The position numbers and the translations under genes were made by a program. A stretch of DNA of 32,545 bases, from positions 1 through 32,545 of the forward strand of contig CASCUT010000022.1 in NCBI GenBank assembly GCA_949155365.1. The letters run 5' to 3'. The notes beneath the pieces are model-generated. The model was not told the DNA's origin and did not search any database. It saw only the letters and a list, made by a program, of their open reading frames with translations. This DNA is from an uncultured Clostridia bacterium (GTDB lineage: Bacteria; Bacillota; Clostridia; TANB77; CAG-508). Each line of letters begins with the position of its first letter. The stretch's first letter is position 1. This document shows positions 3,607 through 14,346 of the stretch, one piece after another.

Positions 3607-3661
3607 AGTAAGGTAACAAAATAGTATTCAATTATCTAATTAGAAAATGGAGGAAAAGGTT

Positions 3662-4567
3662 ATGAAAGAAGTAAATAACGGTACACATTGTAGTAGAACA
3701 AGTAAAATGGACAAAAAAGAGAAAAATAGGAAGGTATTCAAAGACACAAAACGGCGAAGCATGAAAAATCAATATTTGAGAGATGCCATAGAGAAATCTA
3801 GTGCAAAGCAGTATGTAGTAAAAGAACAAGAAAATATGGAAGGGAAGGAAGAGCACAGATTTAAAAAGCCAGCCAATATTTTGGTATCTAAAAGAAGGAG
3901 TTTGGAAGCGGCGAGGAGGTATACTGGAGAAAAAGTATGTGTGCATAACTTTGCTTCTGCTACCAACCCAGGCGGAGGAGTACTTAGAGGTGCTACTGCT
4001 CAGGAAGAAGCCATTTGTAGGTGTAGTACCTTATATTTCAATATCAGCGAAGAAAACATGGTTGAGCAGTTTTATGATAGGCATAAGAAAATGTTGAAAG
4101 AAGGAACAATGGATGTAAGATATAATGACGATTGTATTTATACACCAGAAATCGTTGTTTTTAAAACAGATTCTGAATTTCCAGAGATAATGCCAAAAGA
4201 ACAATGGTATCATGTTGATATTATAACTTGTGCAGCACCCAACCTACGGAAAGATCCAAGCAATGCAATGAATCCAGATGCAGGAAACGAGGCGATACAA
4301 CTTCATAATAATGAAATTATAGATTTACATGTAAAGAGAATGCATAGAATTCTTGCAATTGCTAAGAAAGAAGAAGTCGATGTTGTAATTTTAGGAGCAT
4401 TTGGATGTGGAGCATTTTACAATCCTTCTGAAGCAGTAGTAGAGGCAATGAATATAGTATTACAAGAATATCGATATGATTTTAAGACAATAGAATTTGC
4501 TGTTTTTTGTACAGAGAAAGATTCACAAAACTATGATGTATTTTATAACAGGATTGTTAGAAACTAG
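3662..4567 (+). CDS. Microbial poly(ADP-ribose) glycohydrolase-like macrodomain protein (TIGR02452 / PARG_cat_microb)
   Basis: This 301-residue protein contains FASATNPGGGVLRGATAQEE. GGG sits at 104-106 and QEE at 114-116, matching the PARG signature GGG-X(6-8)-QEE, where the second Glu is catalytic in characterised enzymes. Later family marks are ITCAAPNL and VVILGAFGCGAFYNP. Such enzymes remove ADP-ribose chains or related adducts from macromolecules, and bacterial copies often sit in accessory, stress or phage-related settings. An upstream in-frame ATG at 3647 is less likely, because GGAGG (3649-3653) lies 8 nt before ATG 3662. The first 70 residues are Lys/Arg-rich. Two in-frame CGG codons (3752, 4247) are unusual for this window. 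The gene is monocistronic, with its own promoter, palindrome and terminator. No ADP-ribosyltransferase partner is visible nearby. Confidence 0.85.
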   Translation: MKEVNNGTHCSRTSKMDKKEKNRKVFKDTKRRSMKNQYLRDAIEKSSAKQYVVKEQENMEGKEEHRFKKPANILVSKRRSLEAARRYTGEKVCVHNFASATNPGGGVLRGATAQEEAICRCSTLYFNISEENMVEQFYDRHKKMLKEGTMDVRYNDDCIYTPEIVVFKTDSEFPEIMPKEQWYHVDIITCAAPNLRKDPSNAMNPDAGNEAIQLHNNEIIDLHVKRMHRILAIAKKEEVDVVILGAFGCGAFYNPSEAVVEAMNIVLQEYRYDFKTIEFAVFCTEKDSQNYDVFYNRIVRN

Positions 4568-8383: not shown

Positions 8384-8412
8384 TTGACAAAAAGAATGAA
8401 AAAAGATATAAT
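8384..8412 (+). promoter_or_regulatory. Consensus sigma-A promoter driving the repeat RNA
   Basis: A perfect TTGACA (8384-8389) and TATAAT (8407-8412) with the ideal 17-nt spacer. There is no open frame or RBS between the predicted start near 8419 and the terminator at 8585, so the promoter appears to serve a non-coding RNA. Confidence 0.85.
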
Positions 8413-8466
8413 GAATATACTAATGAATAGATAGTAATAGAAACTATCTGGATGTGCTGACATCTT

Positions 8467-8580
8467 AAAAATCCGAAACATTTGTAAGACGAATGTGCTT
8501 ACCGTTGGCGGACAACAGAAAAATTCGAAACACTTGTAAGACGAATGTGCTTACCGTTGGCGAACAACAGAAAAATCAGT
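8467..8580 (+). repeat. Two 52-nt tandem repeats plus a partial third
   Basis: Unit 1 (8467-8518) and unit 2 (8519-8570) differ at only three positions: 8473/8525 (C/T), 8481/8533 (T/C) and 8511/8563 (G/A). The first and third are paired with each other. AAAAATCAG at 8571-8579 matches the beginning of the unit (AAAAATCCG). Fractional copy number at the 3' end is also seen in ToxI-type arrays. Confidence 0.95.
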
Positions 8581-8584
8581 AAAA

Positions 8585-8626
8585 AAATATAGGGCTTATA
8601 ATTTTTTATAAGCCCTATATTTTTTG
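8585..8626 (+). terminator. Strong terminator between repeat RNA and nuclease-like gene
   Basis: A perfect 17-bp stem (8585-8601 with 8606-8622, core ATAGGGCTTATAA) closes a TTTT loop and is followed by a T run. Only about 25 nt separate it from the ATG at 8651. No room is left for another promoter, so the downstream gene must be expressed by read-through. Confidence 0.9.
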
Positions 8627-8650
8627 TTATTTTTAGAAAGGAGATAACAA

Positions 8651-9292
8651 ATGAAGGAAAAAGAAATAATGAAAAAATTAAAGGAAAGTGCAAAACTTTA
8701 TAAGGAAAATTTACAAAATAAAAACTTATTAATTATGTATGAAAAAGATAATAAAATAGAATATATTGAGATTTTATTTTTAATAAGAAATTTTATGCAT
8801 TTAACAGGAGTAAGAAGTACAGAAATAAAAAAGGCAAATCAATTTTATCAAGCATGTTTAACCAATAAACTTAATATAAAAACTTTAAAAATGAAAGAAG
8901 ATGGAACGACACAACTAAAAATGGACATTATATCAAACATGATTAAAATGGAGGAGCCGTGGAAGATAATAGGAGTATATAATGGTGCAAAAGAAAAATT
9001 AAAAACAGACATACTATTGGGAAAAGGAGATATTTGTTTAGGAGTGATAAAAGAAGTATCAAATTATTATATTCCTAACACACTATTGAAAGAAGATATT
9101 AGAAAGATAACAAAAGAAAATAATGTGATAGTAGGTATCTTTAAAAAAGAGAAACAGGAGGAAATTTATCAAAAGGTAACGAATATCAATAAGAATATAG
9201 AAATAGAGAAAATAGGAAAGAATGAGAAGTTAGCCAGTAAATTGAAGATAGAAATAATAAACGATAAAAAGAATAGCCAAACAAAAAAATAA
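8651..9292 (+). CDS. PBECR4-like predicted RNase; candidate type III toxin
   Basis: The 213-residue protein is basic and Lys-rich, with no signal peptide or membrane segment. It resembles the PBECR4 group (phage Barnase-EndoU-ColicinE5/D-RelE-like nucleases). Seen: KNLLIMYEKDNKIEYIEILF leading into NFMHLTGV (His50), FYQACL (65-70) followed by NKLNI, and SNYYIPNTLL (137-146), in the order and spacing I recall for that family. His50 is my guess for an active-site residue. The start is set by AAAGGAG (8637-8643), 7 nt before ATG. The gene sits right behind a structured repeat RNA and its terminator, with no promoter of its own, the layout of type III toxin-antitoxin pairs. The 35-residue Lys/Asn-rich tail is probably disordered. 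DUF3006 and MBL genes follow 23 nt later and may be co-transcribed. Confidence in the exact family is moderate. Confidence 0.6.
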   Translation: MKEKEIMKKLKESAKLYKENLQNKNLLIMYEKDNKIEYIEILFLIRNFMHLTGVRSTEIKKANQFYQACLTNKLNIKTLKMKEDGTTQLKMDIISNMIKMEEPWKIIGVYNGAKEKLKTDILLGKGDICLGVIKEVSNYYIPNTLLKEDIRKITKENNVIVGIFKKEKQEEIYQKVTNINKNIEIEKIGKNEKLASKLKIEIINDKKNSQTKK

Positions 9293-10766: not shown

Positions 10767-10796
10767 TTTTTAGAATGAGATGTGGAGGAAAAAGAG

Positions 10797-12398
10797 ATGG
10801 CAGAATTTGTTCACTTACATATCCATAGTGAATTTAGTTTGTTAGATGGAGCAAATCGAATAAAAGAGATACCAGTAATTGCTAAAGAATTGGGAATGAA
10901 GGCGATTGCTATTACAGACCATGGGGCAATGTTTGGTGTGATTGATTTTTATAAGGCTTGCGTAGCAAATGGAATAAAACCAATTATTGGCTGTGAAGTG
11001 TATGTGGCACCTCGCACGAGAAAAGATAAAGACCCTAGTATTGATGGTAAATATAATCATTTAATTTTGTTGGCTAAAAACAAACAGGGATATCAAAATT
11101 TGTCTAAATTGGTTTCTTTAGGGTATACCGAGGGGTTTTATTACAAACCTCGTATTGATAAAGAAATATTAGAAAAATATCATGAAGGTCTAGTATGTTG
11201 TAGTGCTTGTTTGGCAGGAGAAGTGAATCAAGCTATTTTAAATAATGATATGGAAGAAGCTAAAAGGGTAGCACTATGGTTTCAACGTTTATTTGGAGAA
11301 GACTATTATCTAGAAATTCAAAATAATGGGGTAAGAGAACAAGCTTTGGTAAATCAAAAATTAATTGAATTATCCAAGGAGTTAGGAATTGAACTTGTGG
11401 CAACCAATGATGCCCATTATACAAGACGTGAAGATGCCTATAACCATGAGGTGTTATTATGCATTCAAACGGGTAAAAAAATGTCAGATGAAGATCGAAT
11501 GCGTTTTGAAACAGATGAACTTTATATTAAATCGCCAGAAGAAATGAGTGATTATTTTTCCAATGTTCCACAGGCAATTGAAAATACGGTAAAGATTGCA
11601 GAGAAATGTAATGTCGAATTTGAATTTGGTCATACCATACTTCCTAATTATGATGTACCAGAAGGATTTGTGACCCATTATGATTATATTGAAAAATTAA
11701 CCAAAGATGGGTTAATTCATCGTTATGGAAAAGAGGGACAAACCTACGAAGAATTAACAGAAGAAATAAAAAATAGAGCAGAATATGAATTAGGTGTTAT
11801 TAAGAAAATGGGATATGTAGACTATTTCTTAATTGTTTGGGACTATATTAATTTTGCCAAAACACATGATATTCCAGTAGGGCCAGGCCGTGGTTCGGGA
11901 GCAGGTTCTATTGTAGCATATGCCATCGGAATTACAGACATAGACCCATTAAAATATAGCTTGCTATTTGAACGTTTTTTAAATCCAGAAAGAATTAGTA
12001 TGCCAGATTTTGACGTGGACTTTTGCTATGAAAAAAGAGATAAAGTAATAGAATATGTATGTGAAAAATATGGATATGACCATGTATCACAGATTATTAC
12101 ATTTGGAACCATGTCTGCTAGAATGGTAATTCGTGATGTGGCAAGAGTGCTAGATGTCCCTTATGCAGAAGCAGATAAATTGGCAAAAATGATTCCAAAT
12201 GAAATTCATATTACGATTCAAAAGGCAATGGAACAAAATAGAGAACTAAAAGAGTTATATGAAACAGATGCTGAAATCAAAAAATTGTTAGATATTGCAA
12301 TGGCACTAGAAGGAATGCCACGTCAGGCTTCTACTCATGCTTGCCGGAATTGTTATTACCAAAGACCCAGTAGATACCTATGTTCCTCTTTATGTTAG
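10797..12398 (+). CDS. dnaE: DNA polymerase III subunit alpha, N-terminal part (frameshifted gene)
   Basis: Catalytic subunit of the replicative DNA polymerase III of DnaE type. The PHP domain opens with VHLHIHSEFSLLDGAN, and the palm has GPGRGSGAGSIVAYA and MPDFDVDF (Asp404, Asp406 and Asp408; the first two correspond to catalytic aspartates). The start is ATG 10797 because GGAGG at 10784-10788 is 8 nt upstream; an in-frame GTG at 10782 overlaps that RBS. The frame is normal up to MPRQASTHA (codon 515) and then runs into an unrelated tail ending at 12398. The correct continuation lies one base on, in the frame of the next entry. Joined at 12345, the product would be about 1182 residues, a normal DnaE length. 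One extra base near 12341-12345 explains the break. Confidence 0.95.
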   Translation: MAEFVHLHIHSEFSLLDGANRIKEIPVIAKELGMKAIAITDHGAMFGVIDFYKACVANGIKPIIGCEVYVAPRTRKDKDPSIDGKYNHLILLAKNKQGYQNLSKLVSLGYTEGFYYKPRIDKEILEKYHEGLVCCSACLAGEVNQAILNNDMEEAKRVALWFQRLFGEDYYLEIQNNGVREQALVNQKLIELSKELGIELVATNDAHYTRREDAYNHEVLLCIQTGKKMSDEDRMRFETDELYIKSPEEMSDYFSNVPQAIENTVKIAEKCNVEFEFGHTILPNYDVPEGFVTHYDYIEKLTKDGLIHRYGKEGQTYEELTEEIKNRAEYELGVIKKMGYVDYFLIVWDYINFAKTHDIPVGPGRGSGAGSIVAYAIGITDIDPLKYSLLFERFLNPERISMPDFDVDFCYEKRDKVIEYVCEKYGYDHVSQIITFGTMSARMVIRDVARVLDVPYAEADKLAKMIPNEIHITIQKAMEQNRELKELYETDAEIKKLLDIAMALEGMPRQASTHACRNCYYQRPSRYLCSSLC

Positions 12399-14346
12399 GG
12401 AAGGAAATATATCCACTCAGTTTATTATGACTACATTAGAGGAATTAGGATTACTAAAAATGGATTTTTTAGGTCTTCGTACTTTAACCGTTATTAAAGA
12501 TACCATAGACTTAGTAAAAAGAGACAAAAATATCGATGTGCAATTTGATCAAGAGATGAATGACCCAAAAGTATATAAACTATGGCAAGAAGGAAATTCG
12601 GTTGGTATCTTCCAATTTGAAAGCCAAGGAATGACCAACTTTATGAAAGAATTGAAACCAGATAGTTTAGAAGATATCATAGCAGGAGTATCTTTATATC
12701 GACCAGGACCAATGGACCAAATTCCAAGATATATTGCTAACAAAAAAGATACAGAACATGCTATTTATACACACCCAGCACTAAAGCCAATTTTAGAGGT
12801 AACGTATGGATGTATGGTATACCAAGAACAAGTAATGCAAATTGTTCGTGATTTAGCAGGGTATTCTTTAGGAAGAGCAGACTTGGTACGTCGTGCTATG
12901 GGTAAGAAAAAATTAGAGGTAATGGCAAAAGAACGAGAAATTTTTATCCATGGACAAGTCGATGAAGAGGGAAATGTTATAGTTCCTGGATGTGTTCGAA
13001 ATGGAATTGATGAAAAAAGTGCAGATAAGATATTTGATGAAATGGCAGAATTTGCTAAATATGCATTTAATAAATCACATGCGGCAGCATATGCAGTGGT
13101 ATCTTATCAAACAGCATACTTAAAAGCATATTATCCAGAAGAATTTATGGCTGCTACGTTAAATAGTTTTTTAGGAAATTTAGATAAAGTACCTTATTAT
13201 ATTGAAGAATGCAGAAGACTAAAAATTGAAATTTTAAAACCAGATATTAATAAAAGTGAAACTAAATTTACCGTAGATAATGGAAAAATACGTTTTGGTA
13301 TGGGAAGCATTAAGAATGTAGGAACAGTAGCAGTTGATAGTATTGTAGAAGAAAGAAAGAAACATGGGGAATATAAGAGTTTTACAGAGTTTTGTGAGAG
13401 AATTCAAGGAGAAGCGGTAAATAAAAAATGTATTGAAAGTTTGATTAAAGCAGGAGCATTTGACGAATTTGAACAAACAAGAAGTACTTTAATGGCTTCT
13501 TTTGAAGAAATATTAGATTCTATTTCAGATTCTTCCAAAAAGAATTTTAAAGGTCAAGTTTCCATGTTTGACTTAGCAAGTTCCAGCGAAGAAGAACAGG
13601 ATTTAGAAAAATTAAAATATACCTATCATACATTAAAAGAATATTCGGATAAAGAACTATTATCGATGGAAAAAGAAATGCTAGGACTTTACATATCAGG
13701 TCACCCATTAGCAGAATTAAAAGAGAAAATAGAAAAGAATACCAATATTAGTACTTTAAACATAACAGAGGCAATTGAAGAACAAGAAGAAACAGGAAGA
13801 TTCCCTTTAAAGGATGGACAAGTAGTAAAATTTGCAGGAATTATTGACAGTATTAAAAAGAAATATACAAAGAACAACAAAATTATGGCATTTGTTAATA
13901 TGGAAGACTTATATGGAAATATAGAAGTAATTGTATTTGAAAATGCTTATCAATCAGCAGGAAATAGTTTAATGGAAGATAATGTAGTGTTAGTAGAAGG
14001 ACGTTTGAGTATTCGAGAAGAAGAACAAAATGTAACCATTCTTGCTAATAAAATACAGGATTTTGATACAGCAATAGCAAGTCAAAACGATAACTTGGGA
14101 AGAACAGAAATAAATAGCACAAGAAAGACACTAAGTATTTGTATTACAGATTTAACAGAAGAACAAAAAGAAAAACTAAGAGGAACCCTTAAATTCTTTG
14201 CAGGAGACCGAAATAATGTACCAGTACAAATTATCAATGGTGAAACGAAAATGCCAGCGGGGGGAATTTTTGTAAATGGGAATACAATAGAAGAAATAGA
14301 AGAGATTGTAGGAAAAGAGAATTGTGTAATGGAAGCTAAAAGTTAG
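12337..14346 (+). CDS. dnaE: DNA polymerase III subunit alpha, C-terminal part (frameshifted gene)
   Basis: Continuation of dnaE in the +1 frame. Authentic sequence starts at GGA 12346 (GIVITKDPVDTYVPLY), so the apparent start at 12337 has no meaning of its own. It contains the rest of the palm and fingers (LGLLKMDFLGL, YRPGPMDQIP, LVRRAMGKKK, FNKSHAAAYAVVSYQTAYLK), the tandem helix-hairpin-helix region, and an OB-fold domain (VVKFAGIIDSIKKKYTKNNKIMA). The family's conserved blocks appear undamaged, so decay has not set in. This favours a very recent mutation, a sequence error, or a recoding event. It is followed by the HD-CYTH gene 62 nt downstream, apparently in one operon. Confidence 0.93.
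   Translation: MLAGIVITKDPVDTYVPLYVREGNISTQFIMTTLEELGLLKMDFLGLRTLTVIKDTIDLVKRDKNIDVQFDQEMNDPKVYKLWQEGNSVGIFQFESQGMTNFMKELKPDSLEDIIAGVSLYRPGPMDQIPRYIANKKDTEHAIYTHPALKPILEVTYGCMVYQEQVMQIVRDLAGYSLGRADLVRRAMGKKKLEVMAKEREIFIHGQVDEEGNVIVPGCVRNGIDEKSADKIFDEMAEFAKYAFNKSHAAAYAVVSYQTAYLKAYYPEEFMAATLNSFLGNLDKVPYYIEECRRLKIEILKPDINKSETKFTVDNGKIRFGMGSIKNVGTVAVDSIVEERKKHGEYKSFTEFCERIQGEAVNKKCIESLIKAGAFDEFEQTRSTLMASFEEILDSISDSSKKNFKGQVSMFDLASSSEEEQDLEKLKYTYHTLKEYSDKELLSMEKEMLGLYISGHPLAELKEKIEKNTNISTLNITEAIEEQEETGRFPLKDGQVVKFAGIIDSIKKKYTKNNKIMAFVNMEDLYGNIEVIVFENAYQSAGNSLMEDNVVLVEGRLSIREEEQNVTILANKIQDFDTAIASQNDNLGRTEINSTRKTLSICITDLTEEQKEKLRGTLKFFAGDRNNVPVQIINGETKMPAGGIFVNGNTIEEIEEIVGKENCVMEAKS

Follow-up and report, generated by a model that had tools for sequence, protein, structure and literature searches.

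The contig CASCUT010000022.1 of an uncultured Clostridia bacterium (assembly GCA_949155365.1) was analyzed over its 32,545 nucleotides (nt), and this whole stretch is called the window below. Positions 8384 to 9292 contain a locus that is best read as a type III-like toxin-antitoxin system of a new, widespread family, which would combine a BECR-type toxin, annotated as PBECR4, with an interlocked two-unit RNA. The probability of this reading is estimated at about 0.84. An initial annotation of the window had already suggested a new type III family, and the comparative evidence supports this as the best reading; no known type III toxin model matches the protein. Descriptions of type III systems have so far centered on a single toxin fold (ToxN/CptN/TenpN) for the most part; AbiF and avcID are the outliers. 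As in type III systems, the locus has a tandem noncoding RNA upstream of the putative toxin gene, one promoter, and a predicted terminator-like hairpin between the RNA and the gene. It would thus be type III-like by architecture, and full membership depends on binding and toxicity. The features are as follows:

8384..8412, + strand, sigma-70-type promoter TTGACA-17-TATAAT, 12/12 consensus matches
8429..8449, + strand, leader stem-loop AGATAGT..ACTATCT, predicted fold
8451..8464, + strand, leader hairpin H0 with loop TGCTGA, of which CTGA (8457-8460) pairs with the trailer P3
8467..8577, + strand, tandem array, the proposed RNA antitoxin (Tandem Repeats Finder: period 52, 2.1 copies)
8472..8475, + strand, P1 segment TCCG, partner of the H2 loop in relatives; the window copy fits H1 better
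8484..8502, + strand, inner stem S1, GTAAG/CTTAC with a 9-nt loop, from covariation
8504..8516, + strand, hairpin H1, GTTG-GCGGA-CAAC, loop partner in relatives P2
8524..8527, + strand, P2 segment TTCG, from pairing and covariation comparisons
8536..8554, + strand, inner stem S2, from covariation
8556..8568, + strand, hairpin H2, GTTG-GCGAA-CAAC, from covariation
8576..8579, + strand, P3 trailer TCAG, partner of H0, from pairing and covariation comparisons
8582..8625, + strand, intrinsic-terminator-like hairpin between the RNA and the toxin gene, from a consensus scan, followed by a T-rich stretch
8637..8643, + strand, ribosome-binding site AAAGGAG, from the sequence
8651..9292, + strand, PBECR4-family protein of 213 amino acids (aa), the proposed toxin (endoRNase), from Pfam PF18813

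The locus, its protein and its relatives

Most elements of the initial annotation were confirmed. The promoter is indeed perfect, and the gene has none of its own: between this promoter and the ATG, not a single site with at least 9/12 matches was found on the + strand. The two 52-nt repeats were recovered with 93% matches and a score of 201, while the other six tandem-repeat rows of the window score at most 56. The start of a third repeat is present as well, but it turned out to be the trailer P3, the partner of the leader hairpin H0. The terminator hairpin exists, and its stem, given as 17 bp, was close to the 20 pairs that were counted, which is the scan maximum. The ribosome-binding site precedes an ATG at 8651, 25 nt past the hairpin.

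The recognition of a PBECR4-like protein also held, with a match to PF18813 at an E-value of 1.5e-29 and 104.2 bits against a cut-off (gathering score) of 27; a search of its own genome (a 1.86-Mb assembly of 72 contigs) with the protein gave one match. The protein is probably a BECR-group endoribonuclease that needs no metal. An AlphaFold2 model was obtained (predicted local distance difference test 90.6, predicted template modelling score 0.86), and the residues H50 (in helix 45-52 of the model) and T144 (in strand 140-146) were invariant in 33 sequences. A fold search with the predicted model yielded weak RelE matches only. The Foldseek rows of best probability (0.11-0.16) belonged to a S. 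pneumoniae toxin-antitoxin module, with an E-value of about 1, and were too weak to be used; ToxN-like rows were absent from the listing, which is not evidence of differing folds. No profile relation of the protein to ToxN (PF13958), CptN or TenpN was found. It matched no NCBIfam model at E<=1, including the TenpIN model NF047358, which is present in the library, and the CptIN model NF047359, which exists but was matched by no control genome. Solved ToxN and AbiQ structures were not matched either, whereas a control search retrieved 4ato, 2xd0, 7d8o and 4glk. Searches with PADLOC and of PDB sequences gave nothing useful, and weak Csm5 rows (E 0.025 and 0.059) in the search against solved structures were taken as chance.

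PF18813 was found in 15 of 195 genomes of the same family, in 26 of 385 of the same order and in 4 of 398 across the phylum, each count including the window's own genome. Further relatives came from genome contigs (37 loci) and viral contigs (3 loci; alignment A1), although a scan of viral contigs with the single protein matched 13 stretches and no relative; in addition, 4 phage records and 78 plasmid records were found, 76 of the latter from Enterococcus. Two plasmid loci (Enterococcus and Macrococcoides) and three phage loci (Streptococcus, Erysipelothrix and Enterococcus) were opened, and all of them had the same RNA. After the removal of duplicates 58 distinct upstream regions remained. 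The order of RNA, terminator and open reading frame (ORF) recurred in 53 of them; the RNA had two units in 52 loci and three in one (L033). The remaining five comprised two loci cut by contig ends (L006 and L061), one deletion (L062) and two with another RNA (L020 and L022). The covariance model R1, which was built from the family RNA, gave no match at E<=1 in L006, L020, L021, L022 and L062. When 110 nt upstream of the leader hairpin were scanned, a near-consensus promoter (10/12 or better) was present in 37 of 46 relatives, compared with 5.2% of 920 random 110-nt windows.

The flanks of 54 loci, fetched at differing lengths, were compared for ORFs of at least 50 aa. The candidate of a conserved protein neighbour was rejected: no cluster of neighbouring ORFs was common to more than 4 of the 54 loci, and therefore a protein antitoxin encoded next door is unlikely.

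Two relatives deserve a remark of their own. The toxin and RNA of L034, a record titled 'Bacteroidales bacterium', group with the Clostridiales record L035, pointing to either gene transfer or a mis-binned contig. In L078, an Enterococcus phage record, the PBECR4 locus is flanked by three matches to the RNA antitoxin RatA (RF01776; 2101-2188, 3178-3263 and 3618-3703).

Predicted pairing between the two RNA units

From 5' to 3' the RNA is built of the leader stem, H0, P1, S1, H1, P2, S2, H2, P3 and the terminator. Stems resembling the leader stem-loop were seen by eye in relatives. Downstream of every hairpin come an A-rich linker and then a P segment, which is the layout of an H-type pseudoknot. 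The unit fold of the initial annotation was only partly right: the inner stem GTAAG/CTTAC with its 9-nt loop stood, but the nested outer closing stem TCCG/CGGA did not. CGGA lies within the loop of another hairpin, GTTG..CAAC, and its pairing with TCCG therefore makes a pseudoknot; in relatives pairing of this type is mostly between units.

The minimum free energy of the window RNA was uninformative as evidence for a structure (z -1.66; 11 of 200 shuffles folded equally well). Covariation in the relatives, by contrast, is very strong. R1 matched the window at 8451-8586 with 136 bits, the window being one of the rows of the model itself. A search of the window stretch with Rfam gave 16 sub-threshold matches, each of which overlapped the terminator hairpin.

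To quantify pairing, hairpins were found by their stems and their loops were compared with the 22 nt past each hairpin. The hairpins of 46 loci were picked from the stem list, those of six later RNAs by eye; one of the latter, L040, lacks the leader hairpin. In the 46 loci the longest Watson-Crick match averaged 5.37 for H0-P3 (null 3.52, sd (standard deviation) 0.15). The average was 4.09 for H1-P2 (null 2.78, sd 0.11), and H2-P1 reached 4.11 (null 3.32, sd 0.10). The averages within units, 3.48 and 3.28, were also above their nulls (2.94 and 2.85), since the two units are equal in many loci. A sequential downstream scheme (H0-P1, H1-P2, H2-P3) was rejected, as H0 reached on average only 2.63 pairs with the next region and H2 only 2.17 with its own trailer. 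At least four contiguous Watson-Crick pairs between H0 and P3 were present in 50 of 51 loci. The loops of H1 and H2 were unequal in 32 of 52 loci, and in these the pairing across units was better in 29, the pairing within units in one (the window), and two were ties. The three-unit L033 with its equal loops, L006, L061, L062, L020, L022 and L021, which does not match the A1 profile, were left out of this count.

Covariation was determined with 36 of the 46 RNAs (34 distinct; alignment A5), nine RNAs with 6-nt loops and L041 being left out. In the cross-unit structure 95.2% of the cells were paired, and changes on both sides were found at 31 of 34 pairs. Of 500 shuffles, none reached this level on four of the five measures and three reached it on the fifth, while sliding the partners by 1-3 columns reduced pairing to at most 47.6%. 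By helix, paired cells amounted to 94.3% in the H0 stem, 99.3% in H0-P3 (both-side changes at all 4 pairs), 92.4% in S1 and 82.9% in S2 (both-side changes at all 5 pairs in each), 100% in each of the H1 and H2 stems, 97.0% in H1-P2 and 99.3% in H2-P1. The within-unit structure has six of its eight helices in common with the cross-unit one; it reached 91.2% overall, and 86.0% and 76.9% in the two helices of its own.

By covariation, the RNA of the family is thus predicted to be pseudoknotted, with loop-strand helices crossing the hairpin stems. The loop of the 3' hairpin in each unit would find its partner chiefly in the other unit, while the leader hairpin would pair with the trailer; this arrangement appears to be new.

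RNA changes on the toxin tree and a possible second RNA class

A tree of 43 intact toxins implied at least 17 changes of the H1 loop, 6 of the H2 loop and 10 of the H0 loop, and a second RNA subtype (subtype II, with 6-nt loops) arose on it only once. Therefore, RNA and protein travel together. The tree was made by a quick maximum-likelihood search, nine broken or partial toxins were left out, and 15 of its 39 inner branches have a support below 80.

R1 found the RNA at 20 places in 16 of the 195 same-family genomes; at the genome-scan threshold it misses the subtype-II copies of two genomes (G015 and G029), both of which it finds in a smaller search. Three RNAs have no toxin gene, namely L124 and L118 with two units and L125 with one unit, and all have promoter-like sequence by eye. 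These RNAs suggest a role in trans. Two further alleles, L121 and L119, are decayed and have lost about half of the RNA, suggesting turnover. L121 retains about 21 toxin codons together with the genes found downstream in the window (DUF3006-like and metallo-beta-lactamase-like, by eye), no toxin was seen within the available stretch of L119, and L109 runs into a contig end.

The divergent PBECR4 loci L020 and L022 carry the drum RNA of Rfam (RF02958, listed as small RNA, sRNA) just before the ORF. A set of 24 drum loci was compiled (L126, 16 loci including L127, which is the L020 locus, and 7 more); L022 is outside this set, having been missed by the stricter filters. In 18 of the 24 the directly downstream ORF matched a divergent-PBECR4 profile. 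As the profile had been built from L020-L022, L127 is counted by construction, and Pfam was used as an independent check: 13 of the 18 proteins were searched, namely that of L020, those of L143 and L149 and ten more, and all 13 were PBECR4 above the cut-off. Outside the 18, L131 showed a sub-threshold PBECR4 fragment (17.4 bits), and the profile found nothing in L126, L128, L132, L139 and L140. L137-L140 are below the Rfam cut-off for drum, and L137 and L138 nonetheless have a PBECR4 gene.

Drum resembles the window RNA in that the RNA, a terminator-like hairpin and the PBECR4 gene follow in the same order in the loci inspected, and in the complementarity of a loop to a tail that lies behind an A-rich linker. 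Among 23 distinct drum RNAs, the match of the 3' tail to an internal complementary stretch averages 5.65 pairs, compared with a null of 4.69 (sd 0.19) in which tails were dealt among loci; the highest of 1000 shuffles was 5.30, and in several RNAs the internal stretch lies in a loop, by eye. Drum is, however, a single, non-tandem RNA, in contrast to the two-unit tandem RNA of the window, and no drum match was found in the window stretch (E<=5) or in the window's genome. A k-turn has been reported for drum (PMC8191799). It seems rather probable, though well short of assured, that PBECR4 defines a large set of toxins held in check by RNA, and that the RNAs fall into two classes or more: the interlocked two-unit RNA, which would be a cyclic dimer closed in advance and derived from a single transcript, and drum as an RNA antitoxin. 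If true, the link would give a likely function to an orphan Rfam family listed only as sRNA.

A third divergent locus, L021, encodes a PBECR4 protein of 199 aa. Its upstream noncoding sequence has a terminator-like hairpin at its end and was matched by neither the drum model nor that of the tandem RNA; it is perhaps a third RNA class.

Two other features of the window were noted. A gene, presumably DNA polymerase III alpha-like, is apparently split into two overlapping frames (10782-12398 and 12337-14346), by either a sequencing error or a real frameshift. Positions 3647-4567 encode a protein with a microbial-type PARG domain (PF10021), possibly an ADP-ribose-removing enzyme.

Proposed mechanism, alternatives and known systems

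In the proposed mechanism, the one strong promoter would drive a short, structured two-unit RNA. Most transcripts would stop at the terminator and keep the RNA in excess, while some read-through would allow synthesis of the PBECR4 protein, a putative toxic endoRNase. The RNA would fold into a pre-closed, interlocked dimer, in which the 3' hairpin loop of each unit pairs with the 5' segment of its counterpart and the leader hairpin with the trailer. It would block the toxin by direct binding, probably as a closed 2:2 particle in which every toxin is bound by one unit. Because the pairing plan is closed, a 2:2 particle on one uncut RNA is suggested, in the way reported for AbiF/RCd22 with its motifs that stay joined (PMC12373285), rather than ToxI-like cutting; this is the least certain step, and cutting of the antitoxin RNA into units by the toxin would still be compatible with cross-unit pairing. 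Loss of the RNA, by plasmid loss or by transcription shut-off by a phage, would free the toxin.

Some observations weigh against this reading. The window itself is the sole exception among the 32 discriminating loci (8472-8564), as P1 TCCG fits the H1 loop CGGA and P2 TTCG fits the H2 loop CGAA, i.e., within units, and cross-unit pairing would put a G-U pair into one of the two helices and a C.A mismatch into the second. The window copy either uses within-unit pairing or has drifted. In addition, the distant PBECR4 branch consists of homologues that lack the upstream repeat RNA, an observation that the initial annotation had named as refuting its proposal; most loci examined there have drum RNA in the same place.

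The first of these points is also the strength of an otherwise improbable variant, according to which the system is the same but the units fold singly, as P1-H1 and P2-H2 pseudoknots in the manner of ToxI and CptI, and are cut apart by the toxin: the two window units differ from one another and yet both keep their within-unit pairs, UCCG/CGGA and UUCG/CGAA. The relatives argue against it with the 29 of 32 discriminating loci and with the lower occupancy of the two within-unit helices. It is similarly improbable that the RNA is only a cis-acting leader, an attenuator at which the protein or another signal sets terminator read-through and which has no action in trans. The succession of promoter, RNA, terminator and gene does imply one shared transcript, and the H0-P3 helix adjoins the terminator, so that coupling is possible. 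However, L124, L118 and L125 persist without a downstream PBECR4 gene, two tandem units would be superfluous for a leader, and a PBECR4 nuclease without a conserved protein neighbour would require another inhibitor.

Two further explanations have very little in their favor. PBECR domains have been described in phage and mobile-element proteins (PMC5512222), and the protein could be an effector of this type that is paired with a nearby antitoxin or immunity factor of protein nature, the RNA being incidental; this is very unlikely, as no neighbouring ORF of at least 50 aa in the fetched flanks recurs in more than 4 of 54 loci, whereas the RNA is present in 53 of 58. Least credible is that the locus simply belongs to ToxIN, CptIN or TenpIN. 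The gene order is identical, and its 2.1 copies of 52 nt are similar to the 2.1 copies quoted for TenpI (50 nt) and CptI (45 nt) (PMC12373285), but the protein matches neither ToxN nor the NCBIfam models (E<=1) nor the solved ToxN/AbiQ structures, and the window's genome already has two classical ToxN genes.

Taken together, a type III-like system with an interlocked RNA remains the preferred reading. A BECR-type toxin under RNA control in Clostridia and Bacilli, and on plasmids and phages, would widen type III, and cross-unit pairing would represent a novel construction of an RNA cage, in which closure precedes cutting instead of following it. Copies of the RNA that stand without a toxin gene might serve in anti-addiction or counter-defence. 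In the literature searched, no work among the matches listed ties PBECR4 to an RNA antitoxin, and neither 'PF18813' nor 'PBECR4 domain' was found in it, most subscription papers and preprints lying outside it. The name PBECR4 is absent from the main text of PMC9403866 and PMC5512222, the two papers in which PBECR terms were found.

Compared with known systems, the PBECR domains of phage and mobile-element proteins belong to the same domain group and are predicted RNases, but they have been described in polyvalent proteins and as solo phage proteins, for which the parts of PMC5512222 drawn on mention no RNA partner. AvcID shares an RNA antitoxin and a non-ToxN toxin, which is, however, a deoxycytidylate deaminase (PMC10511110). 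In the type III-like AbiF/RCd22 of a C. difficile prophage, the toxin gene is likewise preceded by a linked pair of RNA motifs; these act in cis and in trans by direct binding and are not cut into units, but they are 33 and 35 nt long and the toxin is of the Abi_2/AbiD/F family (PMC12373285).

ToxIN/AbiQ has the same gene order and an RNA of tandem pseudoknot-forming units. It differs by its toxin (PF13958, profile-unrelated to PBECR4), by units of 33-37 nt in about 3 copies (in the 12 of 23 ToxN loci with a repeat-finder match) and by pseudoknots that are described per unit (PMC5086642). Candidate RNAs have also been reported upstream of ToxN (PMC8040213). The classical ToxN genes of the window's genome are located at G000:C28:13745-14212 and C1:25063-25572, and a genome of the same genus (G174) has 12 ToxN matches. 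TenpIN again has the same gene order, and its unit of 50 nt in 2.1 copies is similar (PMC12373285); the window protein does not match NF047358, whereas a ToxN matches this model weakly.

A close parallel for the RNA is CptIN, in which about two CptI repeats of 45 nt are encoded in tandem upstream of the toxin gene. CptI forms an H-type pseudoknot whose L1 is 1 nt long and whose L2 is A-rich, which comes close to the succession of hairpin, A-rich linker and P element in the window family, and it assembles into a 2:2 complex, or ring (PMC4627078). CptN resembles ToxN and Kid in fold; the protein found here is PBECR4 and matched no NCBIfam model, and the window family would pair its loops mainly between units and possess a leader-trailer helix, which the parts of PMC4627078 drawn on do not describe for CptI.
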